Source: Acidobacteria bacterium RIFCSPLOWO2_12_FULL_66_21 | Lineage (GTDB): Bacteria > Acidobacteriota > Vicinamibacteria > Vicinamibacterales > 2-12-FULL-66-21 | Direction of reading: 5' to 3' | Assembly (NCBI GenBank): GCA_001767455.1 | Contig: MELC01000086.1 | Location: 1 to 64,000 of the forward strand | Length of the DNA: 64,000 bases | Shown: positions 26,934 to 63,921 of the stretch, one piece after another | Numbering within the stretch: position 1 is the first letter of the stretch | Layout: every line of letters begins with the position of its first letter | Position numbers and translations under genes: made by a program | Notes under the pieces: model-generated | Told to the model about the DNA's origin: nothing | The model's database searches: none | Seen by the model: the letters and a program-made list of their open reading frames with translations, nothing else

Positions 26934-26974
26934 CCATGATTCATGGTATTATTACTACCATGACTATTACCATG
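26934..26974. promoter_or_regulatory. Nested palindromic operator over the vapB start codons
   Basis: An AT-rich patch in GC-rich DNA. It contains CCATGA-T-TCATGG (26934-26946), then CATGGTA (26942-26948) and TACCATG (26956-26962) as a perfect 7-bp inverted repeat with 7-base spacer, and a second TACCATG at 26968-26974, 12 bases on. All three candidate vapB ATGs (26936, 26960, 26972) lie inside these half-sites. AbrB-type antitoxins bind such repeats to repress their own operon. Confidence 0.65.
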
Positions 26975-27217
26975 GACGCGGCCGGCCGCCTCGTGATTCC
27001 GAGCGAGATCCGCCGCGAAGCTGCCCTCGAGCCGGGCGCGCCGCTCGAGGTCAGATGCCGCGACGGCGTCATCGAGATCGAGCCGCAGCCGCTCCCGGTC
27101 AAGCTCCAGCGGAAAGGCCGCCTGCTCGTGGCCGCGCCCGTGCGCAGAACGCCGCCGCTTCGCGCAGCCACGGTCGAGCGCACGCGGCGGCGCGTCGCGC
27201 AGGACCGGAGCCGCTGA
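26936..27217 (+). CDS. vapB: AbrB/VapB-type antitoxin
   Basis: SpoVT-AbrB swapped-hairpin DNA-binding antitoxin. From ATG 26960 the protein begins MTITMDAAGRLVIPSEIRRE, the core of the domain (strand, then R-x-VIP-x-EIR). ATG 26936 and 26972 are other starts; none has a clear ribosome-binding site, because all sit inside a palindromic operator. The C-terminal half, rich in Arg and Pro (VRRTPPLRAATVERTRRR), is the expected toxin-binding tail. One base separates it from vapC. Length is 93 residues from the longest start, typical of the family. Confidence 0.82.
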   Translation: MIHGIITTMTITMDAAGRLVIPSEIRREAALEPGAPLEVRCRDGVIEIEPQPLPVKLQRKGRLLVAAPVRRTPPLRAATVERTRRRVAQDRSR

Positions 27218-27218
27218 C

Positions 27219-27656
27219 GTGCCCCGGTTCGCGCTCGACACGAGCTGCATGGTAGCCGCGGTGTGTTCGTGGCACGAGCGCCACGCTGCCGCCGCGGCGG
27301 AAATCGAACGGCGGCTCGATGACGGCGAGACCCTCGCTGTAGCGGCACACGCGCTCGCCGAAACCTACGCCGTGCTGACCCGACTGCCCGCACCGCACCG
27401 CCTCGCGCCCATCGATGCGTGGACCCTCGTGGAGGCGAACTTCGTGGAGCGCGCGGACGTCGTCGCGCTGGACGGCCCCGCAGCCGTCGCGTTGCTGGCG
27501 TCCCTGCCAGGGGCCGGGATCGCCGGCGGACGGACGTACGACGCCCTGACTGCCCGATGCGCGCAGCAGGCAGTCGCGGGGGCTCTTCTGACCTTCAACT
27601 CGCGTCACTTCGATCCGGCTCCGCCCGGTGTCGCCATCGTCGAACCCGGGGATTGA
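27219..27656 (+). CDS. vapC: VapC-like PIN-domain toxin
   Basis: PIN ribonuclease of 145 residues. The four acidic positions expected of VapC are visible: Asp7 in FALDTSC, Glu48 in ALAETYAVL, Asp108 in TYDALTA, and a further polar cluster at NSRHFD near 127-132. VapC toxins cut tRNA or rRNA and are held by VapB. GTG start one base after vapB, so the pair is an operon. No truncation or frameshift is seen. Confidence 0.87.
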   Translation: MPRFALDTSCMVAAVCSWHERHAAAAAEIERRLDDGETLAVAAHALAETYAVLTRLPAPHRLAPIDAWTLVEANFVERADVVALDGPAAVALLASLPGAGIAGGRTYDALTARCAQQAVAGALLTFNSRHFDPAPPGVAIVEPGD

Positions 27657-27668
27657 CAGCCGGACTCT

Positions 27669-27701
27669 GAATTCACGAATTCACCAATTCACCAATTCAC
27701 G
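27669..27701. repeat. Short tandem repeat, TTCACCAA unit
   Basis: Three to four imperfect copies of an 8-10-base unit (ATTCACGA, ATTCACCA, ATTCACGG) fill the 55-base gap between vapC and the HAD-like gene. It belongs with the other short-unit spacer repeats of the window and stands out as AT-rich. No gene. Confidence 0.7.
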
Positions 27702-27711
27702 GACTTCGATC

Positions 27712-28506
27712 ATGCCCCTCCGCATCGGCTTCGACATGGACGGCGTCCTCGCCGACTTCGCGTCCGCGTTTCTGGAGATCGAAACGCGGCTGCTTGGGCC
27801 CGACGCGCATATCAGCGCGGATCGGCCGGAAGTTGAAGAAGAAAGGGAGTCAGCAGGCAGCAGGCAGCAGGCAGCTGGCAGCGAGAACGAAGCAGGCAGC
27901 AGGCAGCAGGCAGCTGGCAGTGAGACCGAGGACACGAAGGAAGACACGAAGACTGACGGGAATACAGAAGCCGAGGGTCCGAGCCCGCGCGAGTTGAGGC
28001 GCCAGCGGGACGCGATCTGGAACGCGATCCGAACGACGCCGGGCTTCTGGGAAGGCTTGAAGCCGATCGAAGAAGGCGCGGTCCGGCGTATCCACGAGAT
28101 GATGCTGCGCCACCGGTGGGAAGTCTTCTTCATCACCCAGCGCCCCGCCACTGACGGGGACACCGTGCAGCGCCAGACGCAACACTGGCTGGTCGAGCAG
28201 GGCTTCGACCTGCCGAGCGTCCTCGTGCTCGGTGGCTCGCGCGGCGCCGCCGCTGGCGCGCTTCGCCTGGATTACCACGTGGACGACAGCCCGCAGAATT
28301 GCCTCGACGTCATCGCCGAATCGAGCGTAAAGCCGATCCTGATCGCTCCGGACGCGGACGACAAGATCGTCGCCAGCGCACGCAAACTCGGGATCGGTAG
28401 CGCGCGCTCCATCTCTGTGTGTTTGGACATCCTCGAAGAGGCGACCACCGTACGCGCAGAACCACGCCTGCTGGCTCGTATTGCCGCTCTGGTGGGGTGG
28501 AAATAA
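27712..28506 (+). CDS. HAD-like phosphatase (NagD/5'-nucleotidase-like) with repeat-encoded linker
   Basis: A 264-residue protein starting at ATG 27712. FDMDGVLADF at 7-16 is HAD motif I with nucleophile Asp8 and Asp10; FFITQRPATDGD near 143-155 matches the 5'(3')-deoxyribonucleotidase-like motif II (Thr); DYHVDDSPQN near 185 gives motif IV acids. Substrate unknown. Residues about 43-90 are a low-complexity polar linker holding two copies of AGSRQQAAGSE followed by EDTKEDTKTDG. The DNA there is the same repeat that fills spacers elsewhere, so the linker looks inserted. Neighbours are vapBC upstream and a repeat block downstream. Confidence 0.75.
   Translation: MPLRIGFDMDGVLADFASAFLEIETRLLGPDAHISADRPEVEEERESAGSRQQAAGSENEAGSRQQAAGSETEDTKEDTKTDGNTEAEGPSPRELRRQRDAIWNAIRTTPGFWEGLKPIEEGAVRRIHEMMLRHRWEVFFITQRPATDGDTVQRQTQHWLVEQGFDLPSVLVLGGSRGAAAGALRLDYHVDDSPQNCLDVIAESSVKPILIAPDADDKIVASARKLGIGSARSISVCLDILEEATTVRAEPRLLARIAALVGWK
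27851..27955. repeat. GCAGGCAG and GACACGAAG repeats inside the HAD-like gene
   Basis: Two nearly identical blocks of (GCAGGCA)n ending in GCAGCTGGCAG (27851-27882 and 27890-27920) are followed by two GACACGAAG units (27930-27954). The first unit also fills 31221-31430, the second 59991-60028, both non-coding. Total insert length keeps the frame open. Confidence 0.85.
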
Positions 28507-28511
28507 GGAAG

Positions 28512-28556
28512 TTTCCAGCTTCCAGCTTCCAGTTCCCAGCTTCCAGTTCCCAGTCC
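28512..28556. repeat. TTCCAGC tandem repeat after the HAD-like gene
   Basis: Six degenerate copies of a 7-8-base unit (TTCCAGC/TTCCAGT/TTCCCAGC) begin six bases after the HAD-like stop. The same unit occurs at 35584, 36181, 38753 and 54096. The gap 28557-28639 holds nothing else recognisable. Confidence 0.8.
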
Positions 28557-28639
28557 CCGCATCCCAAGCCCAACGCTCATGTCAGGAGGGCGGAGCCTCG
28601 CCGATCCGTGAGCGCTGTCAGGGTGGGTTGGAAGTTGCG

Positions 28640-31135: not shown

Positions 31136-31438
31136 CCGCAGCTCGCCTGCCCCGCCGTAGCGCAACGCGCGAAGGCGGGTGGCTCGTGGCTCGCAGCTCG
31201 TGGATCGCGCTGTCCCGGAAAAGCAGGCAGCTGGCAGCAGGCAGCGGGCAGCAGACAGTATGCGGTAGGCAGTAGGCAGTGGATCACGCTGTCCCGCAGA
31301 AAAGCTGGCAGCAGGCAGCAGGCAGCTGGCAGCGGATCACGCTGCAACGCAGCAGGCAGCAGGCAGCAGGCAGTAGATCACGCTGTCCCGCTGCACGGGC
31401 AGCACGCAGCAGGCAGTGGATCACGCTGTCAAGCTGGG
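31136..31438. repeat. Composite short-unit repeat block
   Basis: A non-coding stretch between rfbA and the HEPN gene. It starts with a CGCCGTAGCGCAACGCGCG palindrome-like patch (about 31150-31170), then GGCTCGTG units (31178-31206), then five rounds of a composite module: (GCAGGCAG)n or (GTAGGCA)n followed by GGATCACGCTGTCCCG (near 31201, 31281, 31334, 31375 and 31417). Spacing between modules varies (40-80 bases), so this is not a CRISPR. The same joined units occur inverted at 61391-61428. Confidence 0.85.
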
Positions 31439-36786: not shown

Positions 36787-36847
36787 TTTCTCGACCTCCC
36801 TCGCAGTCTAAGGACGCGAAGAAATGCGAATGCGATGCCCAATCCAG

Positions 36848-36984
36848 GGTGCTGAGAGGTGCTGAGAGGTGCTGATGGGTGCTGATGGGTGCTGATGGGT
36901 GCTAAGGTGCTGACGTGCTGAGGTGCTCTGAGGGCCGCACCCCTGAGCACCTTTCAGCACCCCTCGGCACGCTTCAGCACCCCA
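36848..36984. repeat. GGTGCTGA / TCAGCACC repeat block
   Basis: About eight direct copies of GGTGCTGA or GGTGCTGATG (36848-36928), then about five copies of the complement TCAGCACC (36944-36984), so the block can fold on itself. It occupies the gap between two - strand genes. Confidence 0.8.
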
Positions 36985-46110: not shown

Positions 46111-46953
46111 TCATCCCTCATAGTCCTTGAGGAGGTCTTCGAGCGCTTCGCCGACTTCCTGTGTCTTTCCCTCGAACAGATGGTCCGCGCTGTCGATGAT
46201 CGCGAGTTCTCTGGGCTCCTCGAGCCGCGCGTAGAATGCCCGCAGGCCCGCGAGCGGGCAGACCTCGTCGTCCTCGCCCTGCACGAAGAATTTCGCCTTC
46301 CTGCTCGCCAGCGTCCGCTCGAACGTGTACTCGTGGCCCGACAGCGACGTCGCCACCGGCGGCGCGATGCCGATCAGCACCGACACGCGGTCGTCGTCAG
46401 CGCCAACCTCGAGCGCGACCCACGCGCCGAAAGAGAATCCGGCGGCCCAGAGCTTCACCCCTGGATATCGCGCCGCCATGTAGTCGAGCGCACTCCTGAA
46501 ATCATCTTTCAGAATCGTCGGGGCCCCCTGCACCCCGACTGGCGGCCTCCATTGCGCCGGCGCTTCGTCGCCGGCTCCATTCCGGCCGCTCCGTTCTTGA
46601 ATCGTCGGGGCCCCCTGCACCCCGACTGGCGGCCTCCATTGCGCCGGCGCTTCGTCGCCGGCTCCATTCCGGCCGCGTTTCTCTCCGTCGCCGAGATCGA
46701 ATGTGCCGGCGCTCCGGCCGACGCCGCGGAAGTTGAACCGCAGAACGGCGCACCCGATCCTCACCAGCCCCTTCGCTCCCTGAAACACCGCTTTCGTGTG
46801 CATCGTCCCGCCATACTGCGGGTGCGGGTGCGCGAACACGACCGCCGCGCGAATCGCCGGGGCCTGCCCTGAGCGAGCGTGCGAGCCGAAGGGCTCGTCG
46901 AGAATGGCATCGAGCCGTCCGGCCGGGCCGATCAAGTCAGTGACTGTGGGCAT
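46111..46953 (-). CDS. Alpha/beta hydrolase with in-frame duplicated insert
   Basis: A 280-residue alpha/beta hydrolase of the dienelactone-hydrolase/YheT-like group. AAVVFAHPHPQYGGTMHTKA near 36-55 is the oxyanion side, LWAAGFSFGAWVAL holds the nucleophile elbow G-F-S-F-G near 172, and the last acid and His are near FVQGEDDEVCP and DSADHLFEG. Between SAGTFDLGDG and DDFRSALDYMA there are about 55 extra residues made of two copies of a 29-residue unit, NGAGDEAPAQWRPPVGVQGA plus a tail. ATG 46953 gives the start; the open frame further upstream lies in the next gene. Substrate unknown; position suggests acyl-thioester or ester cleavage. Confidence 0.82.
   Translation of the reverse strand: MPTVTDLIGPAGRLDAILDEPFGSHARSGQAPAIRAAVVFAHPHPQYGGTMHTKAVFQGAKGLVRIGCAVLRFNFRGVGRSAGTFDLGDGEKRGRNGAGDEAPAQWRPPVGVQGAPTIQERSGRNGAGDEAPAQWRPPVGVQGAPTILKDDFRSALDYMAARYPGVKLWAAGFSFGAWVALEVGADDDRVSVLIGIAPPVATSLSGHEYTFERTLASRKAKFFVQGEDDEVCPLAGLRAFYARLEEPRELAIIDSADHLFEGKTQEVGEALEDLLKDYEG
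46512..46675. repeat. 77-bp direct repeat (period 87 bp) inside the hydrolase gene
   Basis: Two identical 77-base copies (46512-46588 and 46599-46675), 87 bases apart, so the frame holds. Each contains two hairpins: GTCGGGG/CCCCGAC and GCCGGCG/CGCCGGC, a REP-like design. It was probably inserted once, then duplicated. Confidence 0.9.
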
Positions 46954-49988: not shown

Positions 49989-50026
49989 GTTCTACAGGGT
50001 TCTACAAGGTTCTACAGGGTTCTAGA
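49989..50026. repeat. GTTCTACAGG tandem repeat
   Basis: Four copies of a 10-base unit (GTTCTACAGG or GTTCTACAAG) in the 49-base gap between fadB and the TetR gene. Related TTCTACC units are at 46083 and 61244. Confidence 0.85.
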
Positions 50027-50033
50027 GAACGAC

Positions 50034-61301: not shown

Positions 61302-61425
61302 GCGCCTAAGATACACCCGCCTTCGCACCGCCGGCGCTACGGCGGGCAAGCCGAGTAGGCAGTCTCGGGGGCAGGGACAGGGCGCAGCGTGACAGCTTGA
61401 TCCACTGCCTACTGCCTGCTGCCTA
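61302..61425. repeat. Spacer with REP-like patch and GTAGGCAG units
   Basis: CGCCTTCGCACCGCCGG and GCTACGGCGGGCAAG (61319-61350) form an imperfect inverted repeat; then AGTAGGCAGTC (61354-61364) and GACAGCTTGATCCACTGCCT with ACTGCCTGCTGCCTACT (61391-61428), the inverted form of the composite module at 31136-31438. The last units run to the edge of the ADOP stop. Confidence 0.8.
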
Positions 61426-63921
61426 CTACTCGTAGCGCAGCGCGGTCATCGGATCCACGCGCGAGGCGCGGTACGCGGGGATGATGCCGGCGAGGAAGGC
61501 GACGAAGACAAGCGCGACGGATGCGCCCGCGAAGACGGCGGGGTCGAACCCTTCCATCTCGAACAGCTGCGACTTGGCCAGGCGGCCGAGCCAGTACGCG
61601 ACGGCGATGCCGAACGCGGCGCCGACGACCGTCATCCAGGCCACCTGGCTGAGGACCAGCCGGCGCACGCGGCTGCCGTTGGCGCCAAGCGCCATGCGGA
61701 GCCCGATCTCGCGCGTGCGCTGCGTCACCGTGTAGGCGAGCACGCCGTAGAGACCCACCGACGCCAGGATCGTCGCGAGCAGCGCAAAGGCCGCCGCCAG
61801 CGTGCTGATCATCCGATCGAGAAACACGTTGTCGCGCACCTGCTGGGTCATGGTCTTCGCGTCTTCCACCGGCAGGGTCGGATCGAGCCGCGCGACGATC
61901 ACCGCAATCGTGCGGACGAACGCCTCCGGATCCGTTGCGGTCCTGACGTAGAAGCTCATGCCGTCCACGCGCTCCGCCTGCGGGTACGGCCTGAAGAACA
62001 GCGGCGGCACCTGCTGCTTCACGTCGCTGTACTTCGCGTTCTGCACGACGCCGACGATCTCGATCTCCAGCTTCTGGTCGGACCCCGTCCCCATGTGCTT
62101 TTCGACGGCGTTCCTCCCGAGGTTGAATTTGTTCGCGAAGGCCTCGTTGACGATCGCCACCTTCGGCGCCTCCTTGCCGTCCGCGGCCGTGAAGTCGCGT
62201 CCCGCCATGAGCGGCACGCCGAGCGTCCTGAAGTAGCCGGGACTGACGACATTGACGCGCGAACCGGCGTCGGTGTCGGGTCCCTTCTCGAAGCCCTCGA
62301 CCGAGACGTCGTTGCCCCAGCTGCTCCCGGCCAGCAGCGGCACCATTGCCGCGCCGACGCCGGTCACGCCCGGCGCTCCCGCGAACTCCTCTTCCAGCCG
62401 CTTGTAGAACGTCCGCGACCGCTCGGTATCGTAGCCGCTCAGGCTCGGCGAGATCGCGAACGTGACGACGTGGTCCACCTTGATGCCGAGATCGACGTGC
62501 GAGATCTTCGCCAGGCTCTTGACGAAGAGTCCCGCGCAGATGAGCAGCGCCATCGACAGCGTGATCTGCGACGTGACCAGGATGCGGCGGAACCACGCCG
62601 CGCCCCGAGCGCCCGACGGCTGTCCCGCCTGCGCCTTCAGCGTGGTCACGAGGTCCGCCCGCGTGCTGTGCAGCGCGGGAAAGATCCCGAACAGCACGCC
62701 CGTCGCGAGCGCCACCACGCCCGCGAAGAGCACGACGCGTGTCTGGAGGTGGAAGTCGATGATGGTGGCCGCTTCCGGCGGCAGCAGCGTGGCGATGTAC
62801 GCGAGCGTCCATCTCGACACGAGCAGTCCGGCCACGCCTCCCAGCACCGCGAGCAGACAGGACTCCATGAGGAGCTGCCTCAGGAGCTGCCACCGGCTGG
62901 CCCCGATCGAGAGCCGCACGGCCATCTCCGTCGATCGGCCCGCCGCGCGGGCGAGCAGCAGGTTCGCGATGTTCGCGCAGGCGATGAGCAGGACAATCCC
63001 GGTCACCGTGAGCAGGAGAAGCATCGGGATCCGCGCCTCGGTGTGGACCGAGCTCTGGCCCCGGCGCCCCTCCGTGATCTCGAGCACCTTCGCCCTGAAC
63101 CGCTGCATCGTCTGCTCGCTCATGCCCTTCTGGAGCGGCGCCTCGACGGTGTTGATGATCGACGTGTACTGGCCGCCCAGCTGCGCGCGCGCCTGATCGA
63201 GGGTGACGCCGGGCTTGAGCCTCCCGAACAGGTACGCCCAGTAGCCGCGGCGATTGTCGAAGTCCTTCCGCCCGGGCACCACCTGCGCGCGCATCGTCAC
63301 CGGGACGAACACGGCGGGGTCGCTGCCGAGGACGGTGCCCTTGAAGCCGCGCGGCGCGACGCCGACAATCGTCATCGACTGGCCGTTGACGATGATCGTC
63401 TCGTTGAGGACCGAGGGGCTCGCCCCGAGATGGCTGGTCCAGAACCCGTGGCTCAGGACCGCCACGAAATGGCCGCCGATCGTCTGGTCGTCGCGCTCGT
63501 CGAGCAGGCGGCCGATTTCCGGCCGCAGGCCGAGGACCGGAAAGTACGAGCCGGACACGAGCATCAGCTCGCTGTTCATCGTCTCCGATCGGATCGCGAG
63601 GTTGGCCTCGAACGAGACGTGCGCGGCGAGACCGGTGAACACCTGCTGCGCCTTTTCCAGATCGCGGAACATCGGGTAGCTGAACACGTCGGTGCAGGCG
63701 CCGGCCTGGTTGCACGACGTGGATCCCGGCTTCGGCCCTGGCGCGGCGAGGTTGACCAGTTCGTCAGGCCGCGGCACGGGGATCGCCCGCAGCAGCGTCT
63801 GATCGAACAACGAGAAGATGGCGGCGTTCGCCCCGATCCCGAGCGCCAGCGACACGATGGCGACGGCGGTCACGAAGGGCGTCTTGAGCAGCCGGCGAAA
63901 GGCGAGTTTCAGATTGGTCAT
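61426..63921 (-). CDS. ADOP-family (MacB-like) ABC transporter permease
   Basis: An 831-residue permease from ATG 63921 (MTNLKLAFRRLL); ATG 63939 would add six residues. TPFVTAVAIVSLALGIGANA begins helix 1, with MacB_PCD segments (VNGQSMTIVGVAPRGFKG) and FtsX blocks (GIVLLIACANIANLLLARAA, QRTREIGLRMALGANGSRVR) twice. Like the others it has no ATPase next to it. Its C-terminus (YRASRVDPMTALRYE) is the conserved ADOP ending. The gene reaches near the window edge; a PadR regulator upstream, if any, is not visible. Confidence 0.92.
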   Translation of the reverse strand: MTNLKLAFRRLLKTPFVTAVAIVSLALGIGANAAIFSLFDQTLLRAIPVPRPDELVNLAAPGPKPGSTSCNQAGACTDVFSYPMFRDLEKAQQVFTGLAAHVSFEANLAIRSETMNSELMLVSGSYFPVLGLRPEIGRLLDERDDQTIGGHFVAVLSHGFWTSHLGASPSVLNETIIVNGQSMTIVGVAPRGFKGTVLGSDPAVFVPVTMRAQVVPGRKDFDNRRGYWAYLFGRLKPGVTLDQARAQLGGQYTSIINTVEAPLQKGMSEQTMQRFRAKVLEITEGRRGQSSVHTEARIPMLLLLTVTGIVLLIACANIANLLLARAAGRSTEMAVRLSIGASRWQLLRQLLMESCLLAVLGGVAGLLVSRWTLAYIATLLPPEAATIIDFHLQTRVVLFAGVVALATGVLFGIFPALHSTRADLVTTLKAQAGQPSGARGAAWFRRILVTSQITLSMALLICAGLFVKSLAKISHVDLGIKVDHVVTFAISPSLSGYDTERSRTFYKRLEEEFAGAPGVTGVGAAMVPLLAGSSWGNDVSVEGFEKGPDTDAGSRVNVVSPGYFRTLGVPLMAGRDFTAADGKEAPKVAIVNEAFANKFNLGRNAVEKHMGTGSDQKLEIEIVGVVQNAKYSDVKQQVPPLFFRPYPQAERVDGMSFYVRTATDPEAFVRTIAVIVARLDPTLPVEDAKTMTQQVRDNVFLDRMISTLAAAFALLATILASVGLYGVLAYTVTQRTREIGLRMALGANGSRVRRLVLSQVAWMTVVGAAFGIAVAYWLGRLAKSQLFEMEGFDPAVFAGASVALVFVAFLAGIIPAYRASRVDPMTALRYE

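Follow-up and report, generated by a model that had tools for sequence, protein, structure and literature searches.

A repeat dispersed through the genome of this soil member of the Acidobacteriota, with the heptamer GCAGGCA as its unit, appears to have come into a permissive linker of a HAD-like gene, where a 39-nt duplication followed; we regard the result as a tolerated passenger and not a functional module, and give this reading roughly three chances in four. The gene lies at positions 27712-28506 (+ strand) of the window, the 64-kb stretch of DNA that was analysed, and encodes a protein of 264 residues. The window comes from a draft assembly of 91 contigs, in which short tandem arrays may be mis-sized.

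The protein, which is presumably made, is predicted from its sequence and modelled fold to be a 5'(3')-deoxyribonucleotidase-like enzyme of the NT5C type. It matches Pfam NT5C (PF06941) over residues 98-200 with 28.5 bits (cut-off of 24.8); an NCBIfam search gave no match. An AlphaFold model with a nine-sequence alignment as input has a mean pLDDT of 78, and the top Foldseek matches in the PDB are deoxyribonucleotidases (3bwv, 4mum and 1q92), with identity to solved structures of only ~15%. In the model HAD motif I (D8-M-D10-G) falls on strand 4-8 and motif II (T142) on strand 137-142, with R177 as a candidate for motif III and D191-D192 as motif IV. Alignment shows D8, D10, T142, D191 and D192 to be invariant across the six closest homologues, and the enzyme core looks intact. 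While the Pfam match above cut-off and the best fold matches liken the protein to NT5C 5'(3')-deoxyribonucleotidases, it differs from them in a long, variable cap-region linker (about residues 30-96, 27799-27999, + strand), delimited by length and sequence variation in 77 homologues and by low model confidence. The linker is predicted to be disordered, with pLDDT falling below 50 at residues 56-86. The repeats had originally been placed between motif I and the cap; they do follow motif I, but lie inside the cap-region insertion between motifs I and II. Directly upstream of the gene a MazE/AbrB-like antitoxin gene (26936-27217) and a PIN-domain toxin gene (27219-27656) probably form a toxin-antitoxin module.

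Within the linker, two direct copies of a 39-nt block (27852-27929, + strand; 2.0 copies, 94% match) each consist of three GCAGGCA units, one GCTGGCA unit and an 11-nt tail (GCGAGAACGAA in one copy, GTGAGACCGAG in the other). They encode AGSRQQAAGSE twice, as residues 48-58 (27853-27885) and 61-71 (27892-27924), and are followed by two 12-nt copies of GARGACACGAAG (27928-27951, + strand) encoding EDTKEDTK (residues 73-80), so that these peptides and their positions are as first described. The reading frame is open across all of the repeats, and since the 39-nt unit amounts to 13 codons, its duplication preserves the frame although a 7-nt unit does not. With up to one mismatch GCAGGCAGCAGGCA has 17 matches in the window against 0.02 expected, which leaves chance as no explanation of the GCAGGCA repeat; GACACGAAG has 5 against 0.7 expected. 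Two further short arrays border the gene: an octamer array (AATTCACC, 27668-27701, + strand) just 5' of the start codon and a TTCCAGC heptamer array (28510-28558, + strand) beginning 4 nt 3' of the stop codon. The octamer and the decamers GGTGCTGANG and GGTTCTACAG make up intergenic array families (window 27668-27701, 36846-36907 and 49989-50027) that occur at several sites in the genome.

The dispersed heptamer of this genome is GCAGGCA. A 22-nt pattern built on it, GCAGGCAGCAGGCAGCNGGCAG, has 166 matches genome-wide and none when reversed as a control, and a similar pattern is absent in 34 of 39 relatives. Arrays were surveyed in an 836-kb sample of the genome that is 84% coding, with genes called by a simple codon-usage script, so that in-gene counts carry some error. 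The sample holds 84 arrays of period 7, compared with 0-12 for each of the periods 5, 6 and 8-12 and none after shuffling. Despite the coding density of the sample, 74 of the 84 lie outside called genes (binomial p ~6e-48), leaving 10 (12%) within them, and among the GCAGGCA arrays of the sample the HAD-like gene is the sole gene with an internal one. The peptides encoded by arrays follow the unit (AGSRQQA, TSHEPRA, PGAGSRE).

The intergenic copies have a recognizable architecture. GCAGGCA arrays are bordered on the right by conserved sequence, either GTGGATCACGCTGTC or GTGAGTCGAGCTGTC, and forward arrays are followed within 130 nt by reverse-complement arrays in 22 cases (21 intergenic), with no case of the opposite order. 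Because inverted pairs occur in one order only and the right flank is conserved, the intergenic element has the form (GCAGGCA)n, core, (TGCCTGC)n, and could fold into a hairpin. In the window, intergenic arrays with flank GTGGATCACGCTGTC that are related to those in the gene lie at 31223-31428 (+ strand), and a GCAGGCA/GTAGGCA array, also intergenic, followed by GTGGATCAAGCTGTC lies at 61406-61427 (- strand); both belong to the set of sites, L189 among the others, that define the palindromic core as GTGGATCACGCTGTC...GACAGCTCGACTCAC. An Rfam search of the window and of L189 gave no match. The HAD-like gene carries only the forward arm of this element, twice, with no inverted partner within the linker; no hairpin was found in the insert, nor the short GTAG hairpin that marks REPs with RAYTs. 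Y1-type tyrosine transposases are present in these genomes (3 Y1_Tnp matches in this one); they have no known connection to GCAGGCA.

The second family behaves differently from what had been supposed. The original prediction held that the two families occur side by side only in this gene and separately in non-coding DNA. For GCAGGCA the latter holds, as its copies are mostly intergenic; for GACACGAAG it does not in the window, where the copies outside the HAD-like gene are single and two of the three are in called genes. Juxtaposition is unique to the gene within the window but not genome-wide, since GACACGAAG abuts an intergenic GCAGGCA array at G000:C86:342466-342506. The 12-nt unit also resembles a tandem nine-base family of the GGACACGAA type that occurs only outside the window, for example at the intergenic sites C30:92728 and C79b:17384 of the 836-kb sample; this family was met in 2 of 149 genomes of the phylum and is thus not widely shared. 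The window additionally contains a perfect 87-nt tandem duplication at 46512-46676 (1.9 copies, 100% match).

The gene copy can be tied to particular intergenic copies. Its longest identity outside the gene is 35 nt, shared with the intergenic copy at G000:C65:52652, on another contig, and spanning the variant unit GCTGGCA together with the first five core bases GTGAG; 30 nt are common to the gene and a copy on contig C29. The 35-nt identity speaks for a copy of a dispersed element and against slippage in place. Beyond GTGAG/GCGAG the tails resemble the element core weakly, and since 2-7% of sites that are random or preceded by GGCA match the core at least as well as the 11-nt tails do, the tails are only suggestive of the start of the palindrome core.

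The age of the linker was assessed from a search of the order, in which 87 of 162 genomes match the HAD-like protein at the threshold used and 77 distinct homologues have a readable linker, its length being measured from motif I (DxDG) to a conserved FW. Lengths run from 32 to 110 residues with a median of 72, and the linker here has 99. Homologues had been expected to lack about 48 residues exactly at this place, which they do not: the excess over the median is ~27 residues, near the 26 codons of heptamer repeat DNA. The linkers of homologues are polar and low in complexity and have no conserved sequence, and it is this variability of length and sequence across the order that marks the linker as ancestral and length-tolerant and argues that the repeat did not create it. 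L009 and L012 have linkers equal to or longer than the one here, of unrelated sequence, and none of the 76 other homologues combines the same linker sequence and length with an absence of repeat DNA.

A period-7 run scoring at least 0.90 (0.90-0.95) is found in 3 of the 77 linkers, while the remaining 74 score 0.76 or less, and the three arrays are made of three different units: GCAGGCA in the HAD-like gene here, AGGCGGA in L002 and CCGGGAR in L024. L002, from genome G004, is the nearest homologue and of the same family, with a linker of 92 residues. L024, from genome G036 of another family, has a linker of 88 residues, compared with 74-84 in its congeners, which have no array. CCGGGAR is itself a dispersed family of G036 (225 matches, against 3 or fewer per genome in 13 others). 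With GCAGGCA dispersed here and CCGGGAR dispersed in G036, two species of different taxonomic families thus each have their own dispersed heptamer in this linker. Whether HAD linkers are enriched in heptamers relative to other genes depends on the base rate (P of at least 3 in 78 is 0.011 or 0.052), and the excess is only suggestive. HAD linkers were also tested for an excess of hairpins in general, which was rejected (mean of 6.4 versus 6.5 in control windows; 0 of 78 at 11 or more).

The alternative that survives best is a local origin, in which slippage in GC-rich, low-complexity linker DNA built the array and its likeness to the intergenic family reflects chance or mutational bias. The G004 linker gives this some force: AGGCGGA occurs only once in that genome at the stringency used, its perfect heptamer run looks local in origin, and local expansion within the linker would therefore seem to happen as well. 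Heptamer arrays are moreover over-represented in many bacteria, for which slippage has been put forward as an explanation (cited in PMC4692102). Against it, in both G000 and G036 the unit in the linker is the species' own dispersed family, and in the present gene the identity to an intergenic copy extends over 35 nt that include a variant unit and the start of the core. We consider a local origin for the GCAGGCA array unlikely, at a fraction of the weight given to arrival of a dispersed copy.

It is far less probable that the repeat is useful, with linker copy number tuning or switching the enzyme as a contingency locus, an idea suggested by the frame shift that any single 7-nt gain or loss would cause. 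Arrays of 7-nt units can slip, and in the same genome ACGAGCC arrays between domains of MetH (G000:C30:229723-233469, or C30:139723-143469 in the sample; L183/L184; residues 351-378) coincide with a jump in the assembled reading frame: conserved sequence resumes beyond the array in a frame other than the one preceding it, and a gap of 66 N follows. The jump may be a real frameshift or a mistake of assembly. In the HAD-like gene, by contrast, the duplicated unit is 39 nt and in frame, each run is short with only 4 units, an array is lacking in 74 of 77 homologues, and the linker sequence is unconserved. Equally improbable is an ordinary fast-evolving acidic or polar linker whose resemblance to a repeat reflects codon bias, since although all homologues have low-complexity linkers, the repetition is at the nucleotide level with a period of 7, not a codon period, is confined to three linkers (0.90-0.95 versus 0.76 or less in the other 74) and extends to 35 nt of identity with intergenic DNA, which already contradicts a codon-bias reading.

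Arrays also occur in other genes, whose products are named provisionally from reading of the sequences. In the genome of the HAD-like gene, an array interrupts residues 407-437 of an S15-type peptidase. In G036 arrays lie within HutH, an ABC permease, HemW (N-terminus), a penicillin acylase-like protein and membrane proteins. Three sites could be compared between species of one genus, the comparison genomes being drafts and MAGs. In HutH (L197, L201) the loop after GDLAPLAHLALVLxGEG is short in six congeners, and is filled in frame by GGGATCA-type heptamers in G036 and by a hairpin block in G076; GGGATCA is itself a dispersed heptamer of genus g24. One loop of the ABC permease holds CCGGCTC-type repeats in G036 and GGAGCCC in G116. 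In a SpeE/MFS fusion (L209-L217, genus g24) the palindromic repeats in the loop after NLIAAAGA are in frame and differ between congeners: a hairpin with CCGGGAG arms, both present, in G036 (stem score of 30), a hairpin armed with GGGATCA in G069 (13), two REP-like hairpins GGGCGGGACTGAAGTCCCGCCC in G076 (13; a further example of the REP-like hairpin is GGGCGGGACTGAAGTCCCGCCCCTACG), and other short hairpins in G117, G086 and G098 (10 each), where neighbouring windows score 5-10. Certain loops of Vicinamibacterales proteins, the HAD linker among them, may act as recurrent landing sites that receive whatever heptamer-armed or hairpin repeat happens to spread in a given species, so that sister species come to carry different in-frame repeats in one and the same loop. 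We hold this proposal tentatively and think it somewhat less probable than its opposite.

Several features of these repeats are already known from other bacteria, namely heptamer repeats that prefer intergenic DNA, pair in inverted orientation and lie within genes in a minority of cases, the rare occurrence of heptamers in ORFs, and the in-frame elements of Rickettsia. The dispersed heptamers of Xanthomonas (GGGAATC) and Nostoc (GGGGAYT) have period 7 and are 89-93% and 68% intergenic, respectively; those of Xanthomonas form inverted convergent pairs (70 and 75 cases in two strains) and are intragenic in a minority of 7-11% (PMC4692102). The GCAGGCA genome resembles these in its over-represented period 7, its dispersed and mostly intergenic unit, its inverted pairs and the 12% of arrays in called genes. 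It differs in that GCAGGCA has at most GG runs and no quadruplex-forming G-tracts, in that families change between species and arrays flank a conserved core, and in that the fate of copies inside genes is here traced across relatives. The TAACTGA direct repeats of marine Beggiatoaceae are likewise heptamers, mainly intergenic with some in ORFs, for which tolerance at the protein periphery has been proposed; they encode stops in forward orientation and sit just upstream of starts (PMC4679880). GCAGGCA shares with them the form of a direct heptamer repeat, mainly intergenic and rarely in an ORF, whereas its unit is free of stops and sits in an internal loop of the HAD-like protein. Rickettsia palindromic elements (Ogata 2000, 2002, according to the account given in PMC10969869) are dispersed palindromes of ~150 bp with a conserved peptide, inserted in frame into unrelated genes where the fold tolerates them. 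The HAD-like gene is similar in carrying its repeat in frame, but the insert is a single heptamer arm without a ~150-bp palindrome, and the families here change between species. A search of the open-access literature found no paper on heptamer repeats in Acidobacteria. What would be new is that conserved Acidobacteriota enzymes carry, in internal loops, heptamer arms and hairpins specific to the species, and that different repeats reuse the same loops.

To return to arrival of a dispersed copy, an array, one arm of a palindromic element that is otherwise intergenic, would have arrived in a disordered, length-tolerant linker; the 39-nt (13-codon) block would then have been duplicated in tandem with survival of the reading frame, and selection would have kept the repeat only because the protein is indifferent at this place. 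Its persistence is accounted for by three properties: nearly any hydrophilic sequence is acceptable in the linker, neither GCAGGCA nor GCTGGCA yields a stop codon in any frame, and the insert has a length divisible by three. Freedom from stops helps but is not special: GCAGGCA, GCTGGCA, CCGGGAG and ACGAGCC are stop-free in six frames, as are 74% of random heptamers of equal GC content. The claim that such repeats move into genes and are tolerated is supported as regards tolerance, given an in-frame repeat in a gene with intact motifs and arrays in other genes and species, and the insert would be nearly neutral; the movement itself we infer from the 35 shared nt. Such repeats would enter genes where the protein can bear them.

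With one heptamer at 100 or more sites per genome and another unit in the next species, slippage alone is no explanation of these families. Copies within genes, unlike intergenic ones, offer alignable flanks, so that comparison with relatives can reveal the inserted block and its limits, and the SpeE/MFS loop with its different repeat in each of several congeners makes the question of origin testable now. The HAD-like gene illustrates a route from selfish or structural DNA repeats to disordered protein linkers outside Rickettsia, and if recurrent landing sites prove to be real, intergenic repeat elements would regularly supply conserved enzymes with new linker sequence.
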